NCBI GenBank assembly: GCA_001899315.1
Contig: MOYA01000001.1
Coordinates: 683,105 to 747,104, forward strand
DNA from: Candidatus Obscuribacter phosphatis
GTDB taxonomy: Bacteria; Cyanobacteriota; Vampirovibrionia; Obscuribacterales; Obscuribacteraceae
Direction of reading: 5' to 3'
DNA length: 64,000 bases
Part shown: positions 10,786 through 19,627 of the stretch, one piece after another
Layout: each line of letters begins with the position of its first letter
How positions within the stretch are numbered: the stretch's first letter is position 1
Position numbers and translations under genes: made by a program
The notes under the pieces: model-generated
Seen by the model: the letters and a program-made list of their open reading frames with translations, nothing else
The model's database searches: none
Told to the model about the DNA's origin: nothing

Positions 10786-11497
10786 AAGGCGCACTAGCAC
10801 TCGGTTTCATTTAGTCACCCCAAGCTTTTTCTTGGAACTTTTCGAAAAAGCAGCTTAGGGGCAAACCCGATAGAAGGAAAAGATTTTGAACTCGAATTAT
10901 GATTTGTGATCCCAAAAGGAAAAATCTCGTAGCATTTTGAAAAATTTTTTTCGGTCGATAAGGTCCTTTTTTTGACTCTGATTTTTCTTGATGGTGCATG
11001 CTAAAAGTGGCTTGTAGAGCTGGTTGTGCTAAGCCACTGTAAATGGTGATACTAAGCTCGTAACTGAATTTGGATCGTCTCGCCAAAATTCAGTTCAATA
11101 ATTTCTATTGCAATTTATTGAATTCGAGGTTACTCTATGCTGCGTGTGGTGTGACAAAAAAGAGTAATTACAAAAAAGCTGATTGCTCTTTTCAAAACGG
11201 TGGTGAAACTAAAGCAAAGAATTGAACCGACCTGAAGCCGTTCCCAGATCATATTTATCAAGATCGTGTTTTGAAAATCGCATTTGAATTCGCATCGAAA
11301 TAGATATAAGAAAGGCGGCTAAGGCATATGTCGCATTGCAAGAGCCCAAGCAAATAGTAAAAGCGAATGCTGTATCGACATTTATATGCCGATAATTTCT
11401 GAAAAATTATGAGTCGGTTGTAACCTCTTTGATCCTTATATATCGATCCTTATATAAGGAAGTTTCCCTCTGTGTTTATTACAAGGGAGGAATAATA
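10786..11497. other. 712-bp intergenic region with hairpins, no supported gene
   Basis: No convincing gene was found. A minus frame of 91 codons (10811-11086) has no ribosome site or recognisable domain. Visible structure: an 8-bp hairpin (10824-10831/10844-10851), a long hairpin (11062-11073 with 11083-11095, one bulge) and an overlapping 8-bp inverted repeat (11094-11101/11115-11122). The 3' part carries the candidate regulatory palindrome described separately. A small RNA is possible but unproven. Confidence 0.5.
11431..11460 (+). promoter_or_regulatory. Direct repeat and palindrome before histone-like gene
   Basis: GATCCTTATATA occurs twice, at 11431-11442 and 11445-11456, with a 14-base period. 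The second copy is part of a perfect 14-bp palindrome, TCCTTATATAAGGA (11447-11460). It lies about 38 bases before the histone-like start codon. It could be an operator, or it could hold a TATA-like -10 box. This is inference from position only. Confidence 0.4.
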
Positions 11498-12142
11498 ATG
11501 GCAACCAAGCCAACCAAGAAGAAGACTGCAAGTAAGAGAGCTAATCCTGCTGCAGCCGTCGAAGAAACTACAGCAGCTGCTAAGCCTAAGAAAGCTGCCA
11601 AGAAAACTACTGCTAAAAAAGCTGTAGCTAAAAAGACCACAGCTAAAAAAGCTGTAGCTAAGAAAGCTGCCCCCAAAAAAGCTGCTGCCAAAAAGACCGT
11701 AGCCAAGAAAGCTGCTCCTAAAAAAGCTGCTGCCAAAAAGACCACAGCCAAAAAAGCTGTAGCCAAAAAGACCACAGCTAAGAAAGCTGCTCCTAAAAAA
11801 GCTGCCGCCAAAAAGACTGTAGCTAAGAAAGCTGCTCCTAAGAAAGCCGCTGCCAAGAAAGCTGCTCCTAAGAAAGCTGCCGCCAAAAAGACCACAGCCA
11901 AAAAAGCTGTAGCTAAGAAAGCTGCTCCTAAGAAAGCTGCTGCCAAAAAAGCCGCTCCTAAGAAAGCCACTGCCAAAAAAGCTGCCGCTAAAAAGACTGT
12001 AGCTAAGAAAGCTGCTCCTAAGAAAGCCGCAGGCAAGAAAGTAGCCGCCAAGAAGAAGCCCGCTGCTAAGCGCTCTACCAAGCGTAGCAAAGCCTCTTCC
12101 GATGCTCCTTCTTCCGCTCCTTCCGAAGGCGAAGCTTCCTAA
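11498..12142 (+). CDS. Histone H1-like lysine/alanine-rich DNA-binding protein
   Basis: From the ATG with the strong GGGAGG site the product has 214 residues, nearly all Lys, Ala, Thr, Pro and Val. It is built from repeats such as [20 protein letters not shown]. This composition matches eukaryotic H1 tails and bacterial H1-like proteins (Hc1, AlgP type), which bind and condense DNA without sequence specificity. A longer frame starts at 11429, but the ribosome site fixes the inner start. The C-terminus changes to Ser/Ala-rich and acidic. Repeat number probably varies between strains. Open frames on the opposite strand are composition artefacts. A strong terminator follows. Confidence 0.88.
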
Positions 12143-13743: not shown

Positions 13744-13776
13744 GAGCGTTCTTGTGCGAGCGTTCTTTATATATAT
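13744..13776 (+). promoter_or_regulatory. Direct repeats with TATA-like box before precursor peptide A
   Basis: GAGCGTTCTT occurs at 13744-13753 and again at 13758-13767, one every 14 bases, directly followed by TATATATA (13768-13776) that could be a -10 element. It sits about 35 bases before the start of the first precursor gene. Spaced direct repeats next to a promoter often bind regulators, so this is a candidate control site for the whole operon. No known metal-regulator box was recognised. Confidence 0.4.
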
Positions 13777-13808
13777 AGGTGTGCGAAATAGTAACTTGGA
13801 GGTTGCAA

Positions 13809-14165
13809 ATGGCGAAACCTGGAAAACTTGACACAATTGCCCTTTTGACCGTACTGGGACTTTCTTACGGTGTCAGTCAGATGCCTGCCGGCGCAGAGGA
13901 CAAGAAGTCGGAAGGCAAGATGGAAGCCAAGGAAAGCAAGAAGAGCGAAAAGCAGGGCAAGGATTCATCTTGCGGTGAAGGTAGCTGTGGTACCGACAAG
14001 AAAGGCGCCGCCGCTGCCAAGTCTAAACATAAAGCCGACGAAGCCAAAGGCAAAGAAGTGAAAAAGGCTGAAAAGCAAGGCAAGGACTCGTCTTGCGGCG
14101 AAGGTAGCTGTGGCAAAGACAAGAAAGGGGCGGAAGCGGCAAAAGAAAAACACAAAGCAAAATAA
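13809..14165 (+). CDS. Candidate MNIO-modified precursor peptide A (HvfA/BufA-like)
   Basis: The start is fixed by TTGGAGG eight bases upstream. The 118-residue product has an N-terminal export segment (hydrophobic about 9-22, likely cut near PAGAE). The rest is Lys/Glu/Ala-rich and contains two near-identical 33-residue repeats (44-76 and 85-117), each with SSCGEGSCG (Cys 55/60 and 96/101). Known bufferin/HvfA precursors are exported peptides with EGKCG-type motifs whose Cys are oxidised by MNIO enzymes to metal-binding groups. EGSCG here is a close variant. With the DUF692 and DUF2063 genes following, I infer a RiPP precursor, probably binding copper or another soft metal. The modification itself cannot be seen from DNA. 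Confidence 0.78.
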   Translation: MAKPGKLDTIALLTVLGLSYGVSQMPAGAEDKKSEGKMEAKESKKSEKQGKDSSCGEGSCGTDKKGAAAAKSKHKADEAKGKEVKKAEKQGKDSSCGEGSCGKDKKGAEAAKEKHKAK

Positions 14166-14379
14166 GGAATTGTTAAGTTTGTTTGCCGGGTTTATTTCGG
14201 GTATAGGTGCGCGGTTGGCAGATTTAACACAGCCATAACCAAGATTTGGACTTTTTTTAATAAGCCTGGCCTAGCATGATGCTCATGTCACCCGGGATGT
14301 AAAGCGTGGAACTTTTCCATCAACAATTCATTCAAAGGTGATTGGTTACTCAAAATAGTTTGTGTTCACGGAGGTCGAA

Positions 14380-14700
14380 ATGCAAAAGACTCAATTGGCA
14401 GCTGCCCTCGTTGCAGTTCTCGGACTTTCTTTCAACGGAATTGCCCGTGCCGCTGATGCTGAAGGCGACGCCAAAGCCGACAAGAAAGTAGAAAGCAAAG
14501 AGTGCAAGAAAGAGTGCAAGAAAGCCAAAAAAGGCAAAGAAGCCTCTTGCAAAGGCGCTGAAAAAGGCAAAGAAGGCTCCTGCAAAGGCGCTGAAAAAGG
14601 CAAAGAAGGCTCCTGCAAAGGCGCCGAAAAAGGCAAAGAAGGCTCCTGCAAAGGTGCCGAGAAAGGCAAAGAAGGTTCCTGCAAAGGCGCCGAAAAATAA
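14380..14700 (+). CDS. Candidate MNIO-modified precursor peptide B, five tandem Cys repeats
   Basis: The start is set by GGAGGTCG just upstream. The 106-residue product has a signal peptide (hydrophobic 6-19, cleavage probably after ARA) and a linker with ECKKECKK. It then has five 11-residue repeats, KGKE(G/A)SCKGAE, covering residues 51-105. Each repeat carries one Cys in an EGSC context (EASC in the first), close to the EGKC of HvfA-type metallophores. Position directly before the DUF692 gene (29-base gap) marks it as the likely main substrate. Peptide A has paired Cys (CGEGSC); B has evenly spaced single Cys, so the two products should differ in metal capacity. Confidence 0.8.
   Translation: MQKTQLAAALVAVLGLSFNGIARAADAEGDAKADKKVESKECKKECKKAKKGKEASCKGAEKGKEGSCKGAEKGKEGSCKGAEKGKEGSCKGAEKGKEGSCKGAEK
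14530..14694 (+). repeat. Five 33-bp tandem repeats in precursor peptide B
   Basis: Five in-frame 33-bp units encode KGKEGSCKGAE (first unit EAS). Units at 14530, 14563, 14596, 14629 and 14662 differ mainly by synonymous changes. Copy number could change by slippage or recombination, altering the number of modifiable Cys. Confidence 0.92.
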
Positions 14701-14729
14701 CTAGCTTGCTTTGATAGCGGCGGTGCGAT

Positions 14730-15617
14730 GTGACTGACTTTTTGACAAACAAAGCTAAGCTTCCCGATCTTGGTATCGGGCTGGGCTTACGCCGCGAACT
14801 TGCTGAAGAGACTTTGGCTTCGTCCGCCGCTATCGACTGGCTGGAATTGGTACCCGAGAACTATATGGCTATAGGCGGTAGAGCTCGAGCCCGCCTTGAC
14901 GAGGCCAAAGCAAAGTTTCCCCTTGTCACCCATGGCGTCAATCTTTCCATCGGGGCAAGCGATCCACTCAACCGAGATTATCTAAAAGATCTTGAGCGTC
15001 TGCTCTCTTTTATCGATGCCCCTTGGTGGAGCGACCATTTTTGCTATACGACAGCCGGTGGTGCATACATGCACGATCTGCTGCCTGTTCCGCTCAATAT
15101 GGAAGCAGCCAAGAATATGGCCAAGCGCGCCAAAAGCGCTCAAAGTTTTATTGGTAGGCCCATGCTCTTGGAGAATATTTCCTATTACATGACCATGCCC
15201 GGCTCTAATATGGACGAGGCTGATTTTTTGGCTGAGGTTATGGAACGAGCCGATATCGGTTTGCTTTTAGACGTAAACAATGTCTATGTCAATTCAATCA
15301 ATCATAACTTTGACCCTTACGCTTATTTAGACCGGTTGCCTCTGGAGCGCGTGGTCCAGATTCATATAGCCGGTCATAGTCGCACTGACGAGATGATTAT
15401 CGATACCCATGGTGCAGCTATTATTGAACCGGTTTTCGAACTGCTCGACTATGTGCTCAAACGCACTGAGGTCAAAGCAATCTTGCTTGAGCGAGACCAG
15501 AATTATCCGGAGTTTTCGGAGATTCTAGCCGAACTGAAACAAATTAGAAGCATAGCCGATAAGAACAGAGTCTTGCCGTCTGGTAACAGCAAGAGGGTGA
15601 AATCAGTCAGTGCCTGA
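14730..15617 (+). CDS. DUF692 / MNIO multinuclear iron oxygenase (HvfB/BufB-like)
   Basis: This is a TIM-barrel DUF692 protein of 295 residues. Family members use two or three iron ions and oxygen to oxidise Cys of precursor peptides. Ligand-type residues are all present: H68 (THGVNLSIG), D102-H103 (WWSDHF), H115 (MHD), E148-N149 (LLENISYY), D181-N184 (LDVNNVYVN), H192, H212 and H216 (QIHIAGH), D225-H227 (IDTHG) and E254-R255 (LLERD). The GTG start lacks a strong ribosome site. The 3' end overlaps the partner gene by eight bases. It probably modifies both upstream peptides in the cytoplasm before export. Confidence 0.93.
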   Translation: MTDFLTNKAKLPDLGIGLGLRRELAEETLASSAAIDWLELVPENYMAIGGRARARLDEAKAKFPLVTHGVNLSIGASDPLNRDYLKDLERLLSFIDAPWWSDHFCYTTAGGAYMHDLLPVPLNMEAAKNMAKRAKSAQSFIGRPMLLENISYYMTMPGSNMDEADFLAEVMERADIGLLLDVNNVYVNSINHNFDPYAYLDRLPLERVVQIHIAGHSRTDEMIIDTHGAAIIEPVFELLDYVLKRTEVKAILLERDQNYPEFSEILAELKQIRSIADKNRVLPSGNSKRVKSVSA

Positions 15618-16458
15618 AGTAAATGCCAAGGCAAATCTAGCCGAGATTCAAGACTTCTATTACAAGCTCTGGACCCGCCGAGACTTCAGAGAAGATGTCT
15701 TTTCTCAGAGTTTGCCAATCAATAAAAGTGGCGTCAATCTCTATGCTTCTTTGATTGAGATAGGCCGTCTCGACCTAATGGCTTCGGTCTATCCGTGCAT
15801 AAAGGCCTTGCTCGGCAAGAAGTTCAGAGATTTAGTCTTGGCTTATTACGAGACTCTGCCCCCCGATCATTACAATCTCAACCGCTCGGCTAATCGTTTT
15901 GCCGGCTATTTAGAGCAGTATGAGTCTACTTTGGTCAGTCGTCATCCCTTTATTGTGGAGTTGGCTCATTTTGAGTGGATTGAATTGGAAGTAATGGAAG
16001 CTGAAAGTGCAAACTTAATTGCACTGGGCAGTGCCCATGCCAGTAAACGTGGGCGCGGTGGCAAGCCGAATGCCGAGACGAATTTGGAAAGTGAGGCACA
16101 AGACTTTGTCAGTACCTCTCCCCGTTTGGCCGATGTGGTGGTTCTGCATAAATATCAGTATCCGGTTATGACTATTTCAAAGACTTTGTTGGATGGCGAG
16201 AAACTGCCGCGACGGGTCAAGAAAGAGACAACCAATATGGCTATTTATCGCGACAATAAATCTCATCAATGCCGCTTTCTTGAGCTTGGTGCAATGGCCT
16301 ATGAAGCTTTGCAAATGGTGAAAGCTCAACCCGGCATCACCTATGGTGAACTACTCAAATCTGTTTGTCAGTCTTCCAGTGATGGGCCCGCCGAGACAGT
16401 GGAAGCCTTTTTGGAATTATTGGAAGAACTGAAAGCCTGCAATCTTATTGTCAACTAA
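15610..16458 (+). CDS. DUF2063 partner protein (HvfC/BufC-like)
   Basis: The 282-residue protein has the DUF2063 N-terminal helical domain (LAEIQDFYYKLW at the start, VNLYASLIEIGRLDLMASVYPCIKALLG, FIVELAHFEWIELEV). These proteins bind the MNIO enzyme and the precursor leader. A middle Lys/Glu-rich linker follows. The C-terminal segment (from FLELGAMAYEALQ to ELKACNLI) has the winged-helix or PqqD-like pattern used for peptide recognition. Its GTG start overlaps the MNIO stop by eight bases, so the two proteins are probably made in a fixed ratio. No membrane segment is seen. Confidence 0.85.
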   Translation: MPEVNAKANLAEIQDFYYKLWTRRDFREDVFSQSLPINKSGVNLYASLIEIGRLDLMASVYPCIKALLGKKFRDLVLAYYETLPPDHYNLNRSANRFAGYLEQYESTLVSRHPFIVELAHFEWIELEVMEAESANLIALGSAHASKRGRGGKPNAETNLESEAQDFVSTSPRLADVVVLHKYQYPVMTISKTLLDGEKLPRRVKKETTNMAIYRDNKSHQCRFLELGAMAYEALQMVKAQPGITYGELLKSVCQSSSDGPAETVEAFLELLEELKACNLIVN

Positions 16459-16474
16459 ATCTAGGGAGGAAATT

Positions 16475-17233
16475 ATGCAAAGAACAGGAACTCTACAGGG
16501 TGAGACCGTAAGCAATTGCTCGCGCTCGTTGCGATTGGCTATGGGACTTGCTTTGGGACTGGTTTTTACTGCCAATGCTGCTTTTGCCGGTACTGCCAAT
16601 TTTGTGGTTGACGATCCCAAGAAACGAGACACTGTCAGTTTTACCTCTGATGCCCCGGTAGAGCTTATCGTCGGCAATACCAATAAGATCACGGGCAGCA
16701 TCTCAATGGATGATAGTCTTGATTTTAGTAAACAGCCCTTCTCGGCTGTTTTCGATGTCGATCTAGCATCAATCGACACCGGCATAGCCCTGCGCAACGA
16801 ACATATGCGCGACAATTTCCTCGAGACAAAGAAGTTTCCCAAAGCTACTTTTAGAGTGAAAAGTGTGAGCGCTGCCACTACCCAGCTAAAGCCCGGCAAG
16901 AAGGTAACAGTCCAGGCTGTCGGTGACTTTACCGTGCATGGAAAAACAGTAAGCAAGACAGTGCCGGTGGATGTGACCTATTTCGAGCCTTGCAAGCAAG
17001 AGGGTGTGAAATTTCCTGATTGCGCCATGTTGCAGATAAGAGCCGAATTGCCTGTGGCTTTCAAAGATCACGATATCAAAAGACCCGAGATCGTCTTCCA
17101 AAAGTTAGCCGACACCGTCTTCGTCAAGATATCTGCCACAGCCAGAGCTGTGAAAGAAGAGGCTAAGGGCGATAAGAAAGCTGACAAGAAAGCTGATAAG
17201 AACGCTGATAAGAACGCCAAGAAAAACAAATAG
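16475..17233 (+). CDS. YceI-family periplasmic protein with Lys-rich tail
   Basis: A strong AGGGAGGA site fixes this ATG, giving 252 residues. The signal peptide is hydrophobic about 22-36 and is probably cut at AFAG. The YceI lipocalin-like barrel follows: GSISMDDSLDF, SIDTGIALRNEHMRDNFLETKKFPKATF and GDFTVHGKTVSKTVPV. YceI proteins bind isoprenoid-type or other lipophilic ligands in the periplasm. The C-terminus is an Asp/Ala/Lys-rich tail (KADKKADKNADKNAKK) resembling the low-complexity parts of the two precursor peptides. It is 16 bases after the DUF2063 gene and probably belongs to the same operon, though its function there is unknown. Confidence 0.87.
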   Translation: MQRTGTLQGETVSNCSRSLRLAMGLALGLVFTANAAFAGTANFVVDDPKKRDTVSFTSDAPVELIVGNTNKITGSISMDDSLDFSKQPFSAVFDVDLASIDTGIALRNEHMRDNFLETKKFPKATFRVKSVSAATTQLKPGKKVTVQAVGDFTVHGKTVSKTVPVDVTYFEPCKQEGVKFPDCAMLQIRAELPVAFKDHDIKRPEIVFQKLADTVFVKISATARAVKEEAKGDKKADKKADKNADKNAKKNK

Positions 17234-18319: not shown

Positions 18320-19627
18320 ATGCAAGTCTGGGTTGGCCTGACAACTAGCGATCTGACCGGACTGGAACATAGCCCGGGCCTTTCTTTTAGAGCCCAAAGC
18401 GGCACTATGCAGGTTTGTCAGGGCGGGCGGGTCCTCTTTGATACTGCCTCTTTGCGAGTACACAGCGCTGACCAAGTCTTAAGCGCTGAGGGCAAGAAGG
18501 TCAGTTTGCGGGAGCCGGTTATATTAAAGACTGCCGGCAGAACTTCCGCTTTCTATATTGATAACTTAAAGCGAGCCGGCATCAAGGGGGCTCCCTTTTA
18601 TCGCGGCGATATTCGCATAGCTAAAAGCGGCAACAAAGTTAGAGTTTCTCTATTTCTAGATCTAGATAGCTATCTGGCCGGAGTATTAGCGGCGGAAATG
18701 CCGGCCAGCTATCATATCGAGGCTCTCAAAGGACAAGCCCTTTGTGCTCGTACCTATGCTCTGCACCCTCGCTTACCGCATGACCTAGACAAGGTAAATG
18801 TCTGCGATTCTTTTCTTTGTTGTCAATATTTTGCAGGGCACAGTGCCGCCCTCGATGCCCGCATAGACAAAGCCATAAGCGCAACTGCTTCGGAAGTTTT
18901 GGTTTTTGATGATAAGCCCATTTTGGCACTTTTTAGTAGTAATGCCGGTGGGCACACTGAAAATTATGAAAATTGTTTTTCAGACCCGCTAACTGGGGCT
19001 TTCCCGCCGCCGCCGCTGCCTTACCTCAAGGGGGTAGCAGAAGGCCGCTTTGCCGTGGCAGCTGGAGGCGAAGATTTTCTGCGCTATCTCTGGGGCAATA
19101 GACAGAACAAAACTTTTAGTGCCGATGCCTGGTCTGGTAAGTTTCATTTCTTGCATAGCTTTAGCTCTGAGAGCCTGGAAGCGCACATGCATCATGTGGC
19201 CGAGAAATTAGCCGGTGATAGAGAGTCGGCACCATTTGTAGTACCGGCGTCTTCTGGTTTTGGCCGCATACTTGGCCTGAGAGTCTTGAAGCGTGGCGTC
19301 TCTGGTGTGGCAATAGAACTGTCAGTTGATACAGACAAAGGTAATTGGATCTTCAAGAAAGAGCTAGTCATTAGAAAGCTTTTTGAAAATGCCGATCTGA
19401 AGCTGAAGAGGCTAAATAGCGCTCGTATATTTTTCGATCAAGATTTTCAGGCAGCGCCAAGGGGCGCAAAAGTAAAGACTCTCAGGAGTCTTACAGTTTA
19501 TGGTCTTGGTTATGGACATGGAGTCGGCTTTCAGCAACAAGGCGCCCAGGGTCATGCTCTTAAGGGGCTTGATTATAGGGCCATACTTTCTCATTATTTC
19601 AATGGTGTAAATATAGAAAAGGTCTGA
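18320..19627 (+). CDS. SpoIID/LytB-domain protein
   Basis: A 435-residue protein with the SpoIID fold: VRVSLFLDLDSYLAGVLAAEMPASYHIEALKGQALCARTYAL and LFSSNAGGHTENYENCF, with YGLGYGHGVGFQQQGAQG near the end. SpoIID enzymes are lytic transglycosylases or amidase enhancers acting on denuded glycan strands. In non-sporulating bacteria and Cyanobacteria such proteins occur in cell-wall remodelling. The first 30 residues are not a clear signal peptide, so localisation is uncertain. It begins 20 bases after the tRNA and may be read from the same promoter. It ends before a strong hairpin. Confidence 0.85.
   Translation: MQVWVGLTTSDLTGLEHSPGLSFRAQSGTMQVCQGGRVLFDTASLRVHSADQVLSAEGKKVSLREPVILKTAGRTSAFYIDNLKRAGIKGAPFYRGDIRIAKSGNKVRVSLFLDLDSYLAGVLAAEMPASYHIEALKGQALCARTYALHPRLPHDLDKVNVCDSFLCCQYFAGHSAALDARIDKAISATASEVLVFDDKPILALFSSNAGGHTENYENCFSDPLTGAFPPPPLPYLKGVAEGRFAVAAGGEDFLRYLWGNRQNKTFSADAWSGKFHFLHSFSSESLEAHMHHVAEKLAGDRESAPFVVPASSGFGRILGLRVLKRGVSGVAIELSVDTDKGNWIFKKELVIRKLFENADLKLKRLNSARIFFDQDFQAAPRGAKVKTLRSLTVYGLGYGHGVGFQQQGAQGHALKGLDYRAILSHYFNGVNIEKV

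Follow-up and report, generated by a model that had tools for sequence, protein, structure and literature searches.

Operons in which an MNIO (DUF692) enzyme and a PME1 partner act on Cys-rich exported peptides are already known, as are tandem precursor genes and hundreds of unclassified precursors (PMC12452194). Every characterised MNIO–PME1 pair installs a 5-thiooxazole, and the residue that follows the catalytic base of the enzyme is Phe in Lys-Cys enzymes (the HvfB/FonB type) and Asp in Cys-Lys enzymes (the Buf2 type) (PMC13097082). In bufferin clusters, DoxX is a core gene (PMC12452194). It has no settled role there. Here we describe a related five-gene operon in a window of 64,000 nucleotides from Candidatus Obscuribacter phosphatis (contig MOYA01000001.1, positions 683,105 to 747,104), whose genome is a metagenome-assembled genome (MAG) of the Obscuribacteraceae (Cyanobacteriota, Vampirovibrionia), an uncultured, non-photosynthetic cyanobacterial relative. 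Among named records, the nearest comes from a Candidatus Obscuribacterales MAG whose MNIO is 96% identical.

The operon is real and conserved. It encodes, in one direction, two exported Cys-repeat precursors (pre1 and pre2), a fully liganded MNIO, a PME1 protein whose DUF2063 gene overlaps that of the MNIO, and a YceI-family lipocalin. This composition, read in the original prediction from the sequence alone, is borne out by the open reading frames, by Pfam matches (counted only above gathering scores; NCBIfam equivalogs were judged by curated cut-offs) and by ligand mapping. The locus is probably a captophorin-like (bufferin/HvfA-like) operon for ribosomally synthesised and post-translationally modified peptides, with two substrates, metal-binding products and the YceI protein as an envelope partner.

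Like the Lys-Cys captophorins HvfABC (oxazolin, Haemophilus influenzae), FonABC (fontiphorin) and NgoABC, the locus combines a Sec-exported Cys-repeat precursor with a fully liganded MNIO and a PME1 protein of DUF2063 and RRE domains; an Arg-Arg pair and, in pre1, an EGKCG-like peptide are further shared features. It differs from these three systems in its SCGEGSCG motif, in a Gln rather than Phe gate, in the additional Cys-Lys precursor and in the YceI gene, and it scores under the HvfB and HvfC cut-offs. With the bufferins Buf1 and Buf2 (bufABCD), it has in common the gene order precursor–MNIO–PME1, the same large MNIO clade and, in Buf2 and pre2, Cys-Lys motifs. However, its precursors lack the DUF2282 domain of Buf1 in Pfam, pre2 is a tandem repeat instead of the six-Cys layout of Buf2 (6/12 Cys), the gate is again Gln, there is no sigma/anti-sigma pair, and the genome has no DoxX (BufD). 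MbnB (methanobactin) and TglH (3-thiaglutamate) share the fold and metal ligands of the MNIO but are far from it in score and tree, and they have other partner types and precursors without signal peptides. The labels BufABCD and HvfABC were both rejected on the curated cut-offs, the missing DUF2282, the missing DoxX and the gating residue. The bufferin/HvfA-like character originally proposed is supported by domains, tree, conserved synteny and gene co-occurrence; the locus is not a member of the named Buf or Hvf families. In the literature, survey supplements aside, we found no precedent for YceI in such a system, for Gln at the gating position, for the EGSCKG peptides with their conserved leader and promoter, or for a host of this group. 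The operon would extend peptide metallophores to non-photosynthetic Cyanobacteriota, a group unmentioned in the main texts of the landscape surveys.

Co-occurrence of pre1 and an operon-specific YceI gene

The last gene of the operon (positions 16475–17233, + strand) encodes a YceI-family lipocalin with a Sec signal peptide and a Lys-rich tail (PF04264, 79.4 bits against a cut-off of 23.7). Its AlphaFold2 model (28 homologues) has a pLDDT of 80, and all 21 PDB matches found by Foldseek with E < 0.001 are YceI-family proteins, including 1y0g (E 5e-12), BcnA and PA0423. Fold, Pfam family and export are shared with E. coli YceI, BcnA/BcnB, TT1927b and PA0423. Lipocalins of this family have isoprenoids or ubiquinone-8 as ligands and have been tied to protection against lipid peroxidation (PMC9113575). 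Unlike the known members, the window protein is linked to an MNIO precursor, and no cytochrome b561 neighbour was seen. Operon-type YceI proteins form a distinct subfamily, scoring 158–541 bits with the window query compared to about 27–41 bits for the other YceI proteins of the same genomes, and those of the Obscuribacteraceae carry an additional Cys-containing loop.

The presence of this gene follows that of pre1. Among the MNIO-selected loci, 10 have both genes, 19 have neither and none has a single one. Genome-wide, 17 of the 50 family genomes contain both, one contains pre1 only, none YceI only and 32 neither (p 1.8e-12). In the sole pre1-only genome (G137), pre1 lies at a contig edge, and a genome scored as having neither (G141) holds a short YceI fragment, also at a contig edge. 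Two genomes (G024 and G123) have two copies each of pre1 and YceI. A pre1 hidden elsewhere in YceI-less genomes was ruled out by a genome-wide profile search, which returned two weak matches (18.5–18.9 bits). In genome G048 (L139:2989–4102), an EGKCG-type precursor is followed directly by YceI, and the MNIO of the same contig lies over 20 kb away. Since no MNIO stands between the two genes of this pair, YceI probably serves the peptide rather than its maturation. Elsewhere in the class, too, YceI comes after an MNIO–PME1 pair with a KCG peptide (L085, L137 and L140–L144, from other families); the class has three families in which YceI is conserved. No YceI lies beside an MNIO outside the class in the sampled genomes of the phylum, and plasmids gave only four remote YceI matches. 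The partnership that the original prediction regarded as unexpected is thus supported by co-occurrence, but it is no one-off oddity, given its spread over three families and its association with pre1 instead of the maturase. Of the new ideas to emerge from this locus, the best supported, on the evidence of co-inheritance, is that YceI may assist the product of pre1 in the envelope, and an envelope lipocalin co-inherited with one peptide offers a concrete pair for the study of accessory envelope genes.

The distribution of DoxX is compatible with a DoxX-like job of YceI, which would fill the slot that DoxX often holds in bufferin clusters. There is no PF07681 (DoxX) match in the entire genome of the host, while control genomes were positive; the possibility that DoxX had merely been relocated was rejected on this ground. 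Strong DoxX matches are present in 2 of the 18 genomes with pre1/YceI versus 23 of the 32 without (p 7e-5, uncorrected for relatedness). The strong DoxX genes examined in relatives stand alone, save for one (G024 C10) that follows another MNIO–PME1 pair.

Methionine sulfoxide reductase genes recur next to YceI, DoxX and EGSCKGK genes. In another class, YceI is followed by two msrA genes (L187:1486–3331), an msrB-like open reading frame adjoins YceI in L193, and genome G020 holds a DoxX–msrB–msrA cluster (L209:2827–4339). The operon-type YceI gene of genome G072 (L145:5884–6567) lies downstream of an isoleucyl-tRNA synthetase-like gene.

Precursor peptides and their upstream regions

Pre2 (14380–14700, + strand) is an exported Cys-Lys repeat precursor of 106 aa with 7 Cys and five E[AG]SCKGAEKGK units. 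In most Obscuribacteraceae genomes, the gene for an EGSCKG(K/A)-repeat peptide of this type immediately precedes the orthologous MNIO gene. The pre2 signal peptide, MQKTQLAAALVAVLGL, is near-identical between genera, whereas the YceI signal peptides at the same loci vary freely; by this comparison, its conservation far exceeds what export requires. Preliminary evidence indicates that the signal peptide of Buf1 belongs to the maturase recognition site (PMC12452194). Taken together with the conserved pre2 leader, this suggests that the signal peptide probably doubles as a maturation leader.

Pre1 (13809–14165, + strand) is an exported Cys-Gly precursor that starts with an ATG after GGAGG and comprises 118 aa with 4 Cys, arranged in two copies of SSCGEGSCG(T/K)DKKGA. 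Its orthologues are present in 18 of the 50 family genomes, and the CGxGxCGxD core is invariant across the 18 loci; of its differences from the copy in the same-genus genome G002, 28 are synonymous and 2 non-synonymous. Under a model of the pre2 leader, pre1 leaders outscore control signal peptides (p 1e-5 and 7e-8). Relatives of pre1 in the class have KCG motifs, for example AKCGEGKCG in L139, and pre1 is therefore, by its motif, a divergent (degenerate) EGKCG peptide of the Cys-Gly kind. Neither precursor has a Pfam match above cut-off or an NCBIfam match. The EGSC motif that had been attributed to both precursors hence resolves into this degenerate EGKCG in pre1 and a Cys-Lys repeat in pre2, and the expectation that both would be found beside these genes holds for pre2, which is nearly constant at the MNIO; pre1 is present in only 18 of the family genomes. 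In other Vampirovibrionia families, exported HKCG/DKCG-repeat peptides precede the MNIO (L083, L085, L086, L088, L095, L137 and L140–L144). They make up a further unclassified precursor group, and the gating residue of the MNIOs concerned is Thr, Leu, Ser or Gly.

Good ribosome sites are present upstream of pre1, pre2 and YceI. Short gaps had been predicted throughout, with a start at position 13744 that precedes the first gene; tight packing is in fact limited to pre2–MNIO–PME1–YceI, as pre1 is separated from pre2 by 214 nt that contain a conserved promoter. Here, the conserved element AGATTTAACACAGCCATAACCA (14220–14241, + strand), a direct repeat of the TTTAC-N6-ATAAC type, is followed 52 nt on by TAGCAT (14272–14277, + strand), which probably serves the pre2 promoter as its -10 box. 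The same arrangement, the direct repeat AGATTTTACACA-GCCATAACC and then TA(G/C)(G/C)AT at 52–53 nt, is found in most loci, and AGATTTTACACA is matched with at most two mismatches at 20 of 33 pre2 loci compared with 14 of 660 shuffles. The element was not found upstream of pre1, an operator common to pre1 and pre2 was sought and not found, and an Rfam search gave no known RNA element. As the pre2 promoter sits in the pre1–pre2 gap, pre2–MNIO–PME1–YceI probably form one transcription unit and pre1 another. A repeat period of about 11 bp is associated with OmpR-family regulators, and the period of the pre2 element, which is of this length, suggests a regulator of the OmpR type. Upstream of pre1, two copies of GAGCGTTCTT (13744–13753 and 13758–13767, + strand) may tentatively be taken as an operator. 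The pair is kept in G002, where the second copy has one base changed, and the aligned upstream stretch of G001 ends short of the site.

The host genome encodes a third precursor-like protein of the EGSCKGK type, an exported protein of 160 aa whose EGSCKGK heptads, repeated about 14 times, hold about 14 Cys, and which has no MNIO nearby (L149:1486–1965; G000:C2:240690–241166). It adjoins a divergent msrAB fusion, and this stand-alone EGSCKGK–msrAB pairing is seen in six genomes of two genera, including the host genome (relatives in L164–L168).

The MNIO enzyme and its PME1 partner

The MNIO gene (14730–15617, + strand) has a GTG start, and its product matches PF05114 with 338 bits and the structure 3BWW with E 6e-55. 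Mapping of the nine iron ligands of TglH (PMC10880893) found all of them in the window enzyme (H68, H103, E148, D181, N184, H212, D225, H227 and E254), and they are invariant across 74 MNIO homologues. The enzyme retains the Arg-Arg pair (R21 and R22), and its D256 is the counterpart of FonB D249, the proposed catalytic base. The gating position, equivalent to residue 250 of FonB, is occupied by Gln257. Gln is found here in 48 of the 74 homologues, a set that includes almost all enzymes adjoining pre2-type peptides. The locus hence departs from the Lys-Cys group both in its motifs (GEGSCG and EGSCKG) and in having Gln257 instead of Phe; compared with the Cys-Lys group, pre2 has the Cys-Lys motifs but the enzyme has Gln257 instead of Asp. 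A Gln-gated enzyme next to two motif types bears directly on the published specificity model.

In the curated models, the MNIO falls narrowly below the BufB cut-off (301.4 versus 310), clearly below that of HvfB (298 versus 360) and far below that of MbnB (52 versus 325 bits). PME1 (15610–16458, + strand), whose gene overlaps that of the MNIO by 8 nt, consists of a DUF2063 domain (PF09836, 34.3 bits, cut-off 27.2) and a C-terminal NGO1945-type RRE domain (PF22106, 43.4 bits, cut-off 27), and it reaches 82 bits in the HvfC model, against a cut-off of 142. We placed the MNIO in a tree with 3BWW, TglH, MbnB and annotated Buf1/Buf2 neighbours as references, in which deep branches are weakly supported and the placement of long rows is uncertain. 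It falls in an Obscuribacterales clade within the BufB/HvfB-like group, together with the Buf1/Buf2-type references and 3BWW, and apart from TglH and from the two paralogues of its own genome. The profile search and tree proposed along with the original prediction thus favour a BufB/HvfB-like enzyme, away from MbnB and TglH.

Related genomes encode fusions of MNIO, DUF2063 and RRE in a single protein (L066:346–2625 and L071:5989–7839) as well as MNIO–DUF2063–methyltransferase fusions (L084:4351–6840 and L087:5947–8496; the DUF2063 match in L084 is slightly under the cut-off). The second MNIO gene of the host genome (L002:552–2730; G000:C6) overlaps with its start the 3' end of another gene, which encodes a membrane-type protein with a C-terminal Cys-Gly tail, GSGCGSGCGGGGCGGGCGG, resembling the TIGR04222 group (PMC12452194).

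Proposed function and rival explanations

By analogy with characterised relatives, both precursors would be made with a Sec signal peptide that is bound as a leader by the RRE domain of PME1, and the mixed-valent iron cluster of the MNIO would use O2 to oxidise the Cys of SCG and SCKG motifs, with 5-thiooxazoles as the most likely products (-4 Da per Cys). Once modified, the peptides would be exported to bind soft metal ions outside the cytoplasm, with Cu(I) as the likeliest, and would thereby protect the envelope. The exported YceI protein may act there with the pre1 product, probably via a bound isoprenoid or quinone, and may keep the thiol form reduced or limit metal-driven lipid oxidation, a function for which there is no direct precedent. 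Several points weigh against this reading. Its chemistry and metal binding are carried over entirely from relatives, Gln257 is a putative gate, and the operon contains no copper gene. FonBC, which of all the relatives has been studied best, does not process Cys before a charged residue (PMC13097082); given this preference and the Cys-Lys motifs of pre2, a single enzyme for both peptides is not assured, and an MNIO accepting SCG as well as SCKG, as we infer, would run counter to it. The MNIO tree contains six joint changes of pre1 and YceI with only one well-supported contrast, and shared ancestry inflates the p-values of this linkage and weakens the DoxX contrast in the same way. Moreover, G072, a 97%-complete genome, keeps an operon-type YceI without an MNIO.

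The last observation would also suit a YceI that never meets the peptides, whether as a passenger or as a stress protein in its own right that is co-regulated with the operon (such as a lipid-peroxyl guard of the BcnA type). YceI proteins elsewhere work alone or with cytochrome b561 (PMC9113575), and YceI homologues of other classes have no adjoining MNIO. Yet the genome-wide pattern tracks pre1 and not the MNIO, copy numbers match in G024 and G123, and L139 holds a precursor–YceI pair free of an MNIO, which makes this explanation possible but doubtful. It is rather unlikely that pre2 is the sole substrate and that pre1 rides along with YceI as an unmodified or cross-modified Cys peptide: pre2 is nearly constant in the family, some two thirds of whose genomes lack pre1, and the separate upstream region of pre1 is without the conserved promoter element, but the classical EGKCG motif occurs in relatives of pre1, pre1 leaders resemble that of pre2, and EGKCG peptides are substrates of MNIOs in the same large group.

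Trivial sequence drift in an otherwise ordinary operon of the bufferin or oxazolin kind would account for the core order, identical to that of buf and hvf, and hundreds of unclassified signal-peptide precursors as well as tandem precursor genes have been noted previously (PMC12452194). We nevertheless consider this unlikely in view of the absence of DUF2282, of EGKCG in the window and of DoxX in the genome, the third gating residue conserved in the family, and the co-inherited YceI, which goes unmentioned in the main texts of the landscape surveys. A different modification of Cys, such as oxazolone/thioamide, or of neighbouring residues, with products other than thiooxazole metallophores, appears improbable. 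Gln257 is neither Phe nor Asp and the scores lie under the BufB and HvfB cut-offs; however, the oxazolone/thioamide-forming MbnB is remote and works without PME1, the window enzyme retains D256 as base together with every ligand, and the 5-thiooxazole is the product of all characterised MNIO–PME1 pairs (PMC13097082). Going beyond the captophorin-like reading, one could speculate that the Gln gate marks a third specificity class of thiooxazole-forming MNIO, which matures two chemically different exported metallophores, a Cys-Lys repeat peptide that buffers metals in general and a Cys-Gly peptide docking on a dedicated YceI, and that the capture of metal is thereby linked, in place of DoxX, to a quinone or lipid carrier of the membrane; we hold this to be conceivable, though on balance unlikely.

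Elsewhere in the window, a Lys/Ala-repeat histone H1-like protein (HC2, PF07382, 84 bits) is encoded upstream of the operon (11429–12142, + strand). On the other side, a membrane protein of 965 aa that contains a VIT domain (PF08487; 19709–22606, - strand) is encoded near a SpoIID-domain gene (18320–19627, + strand).

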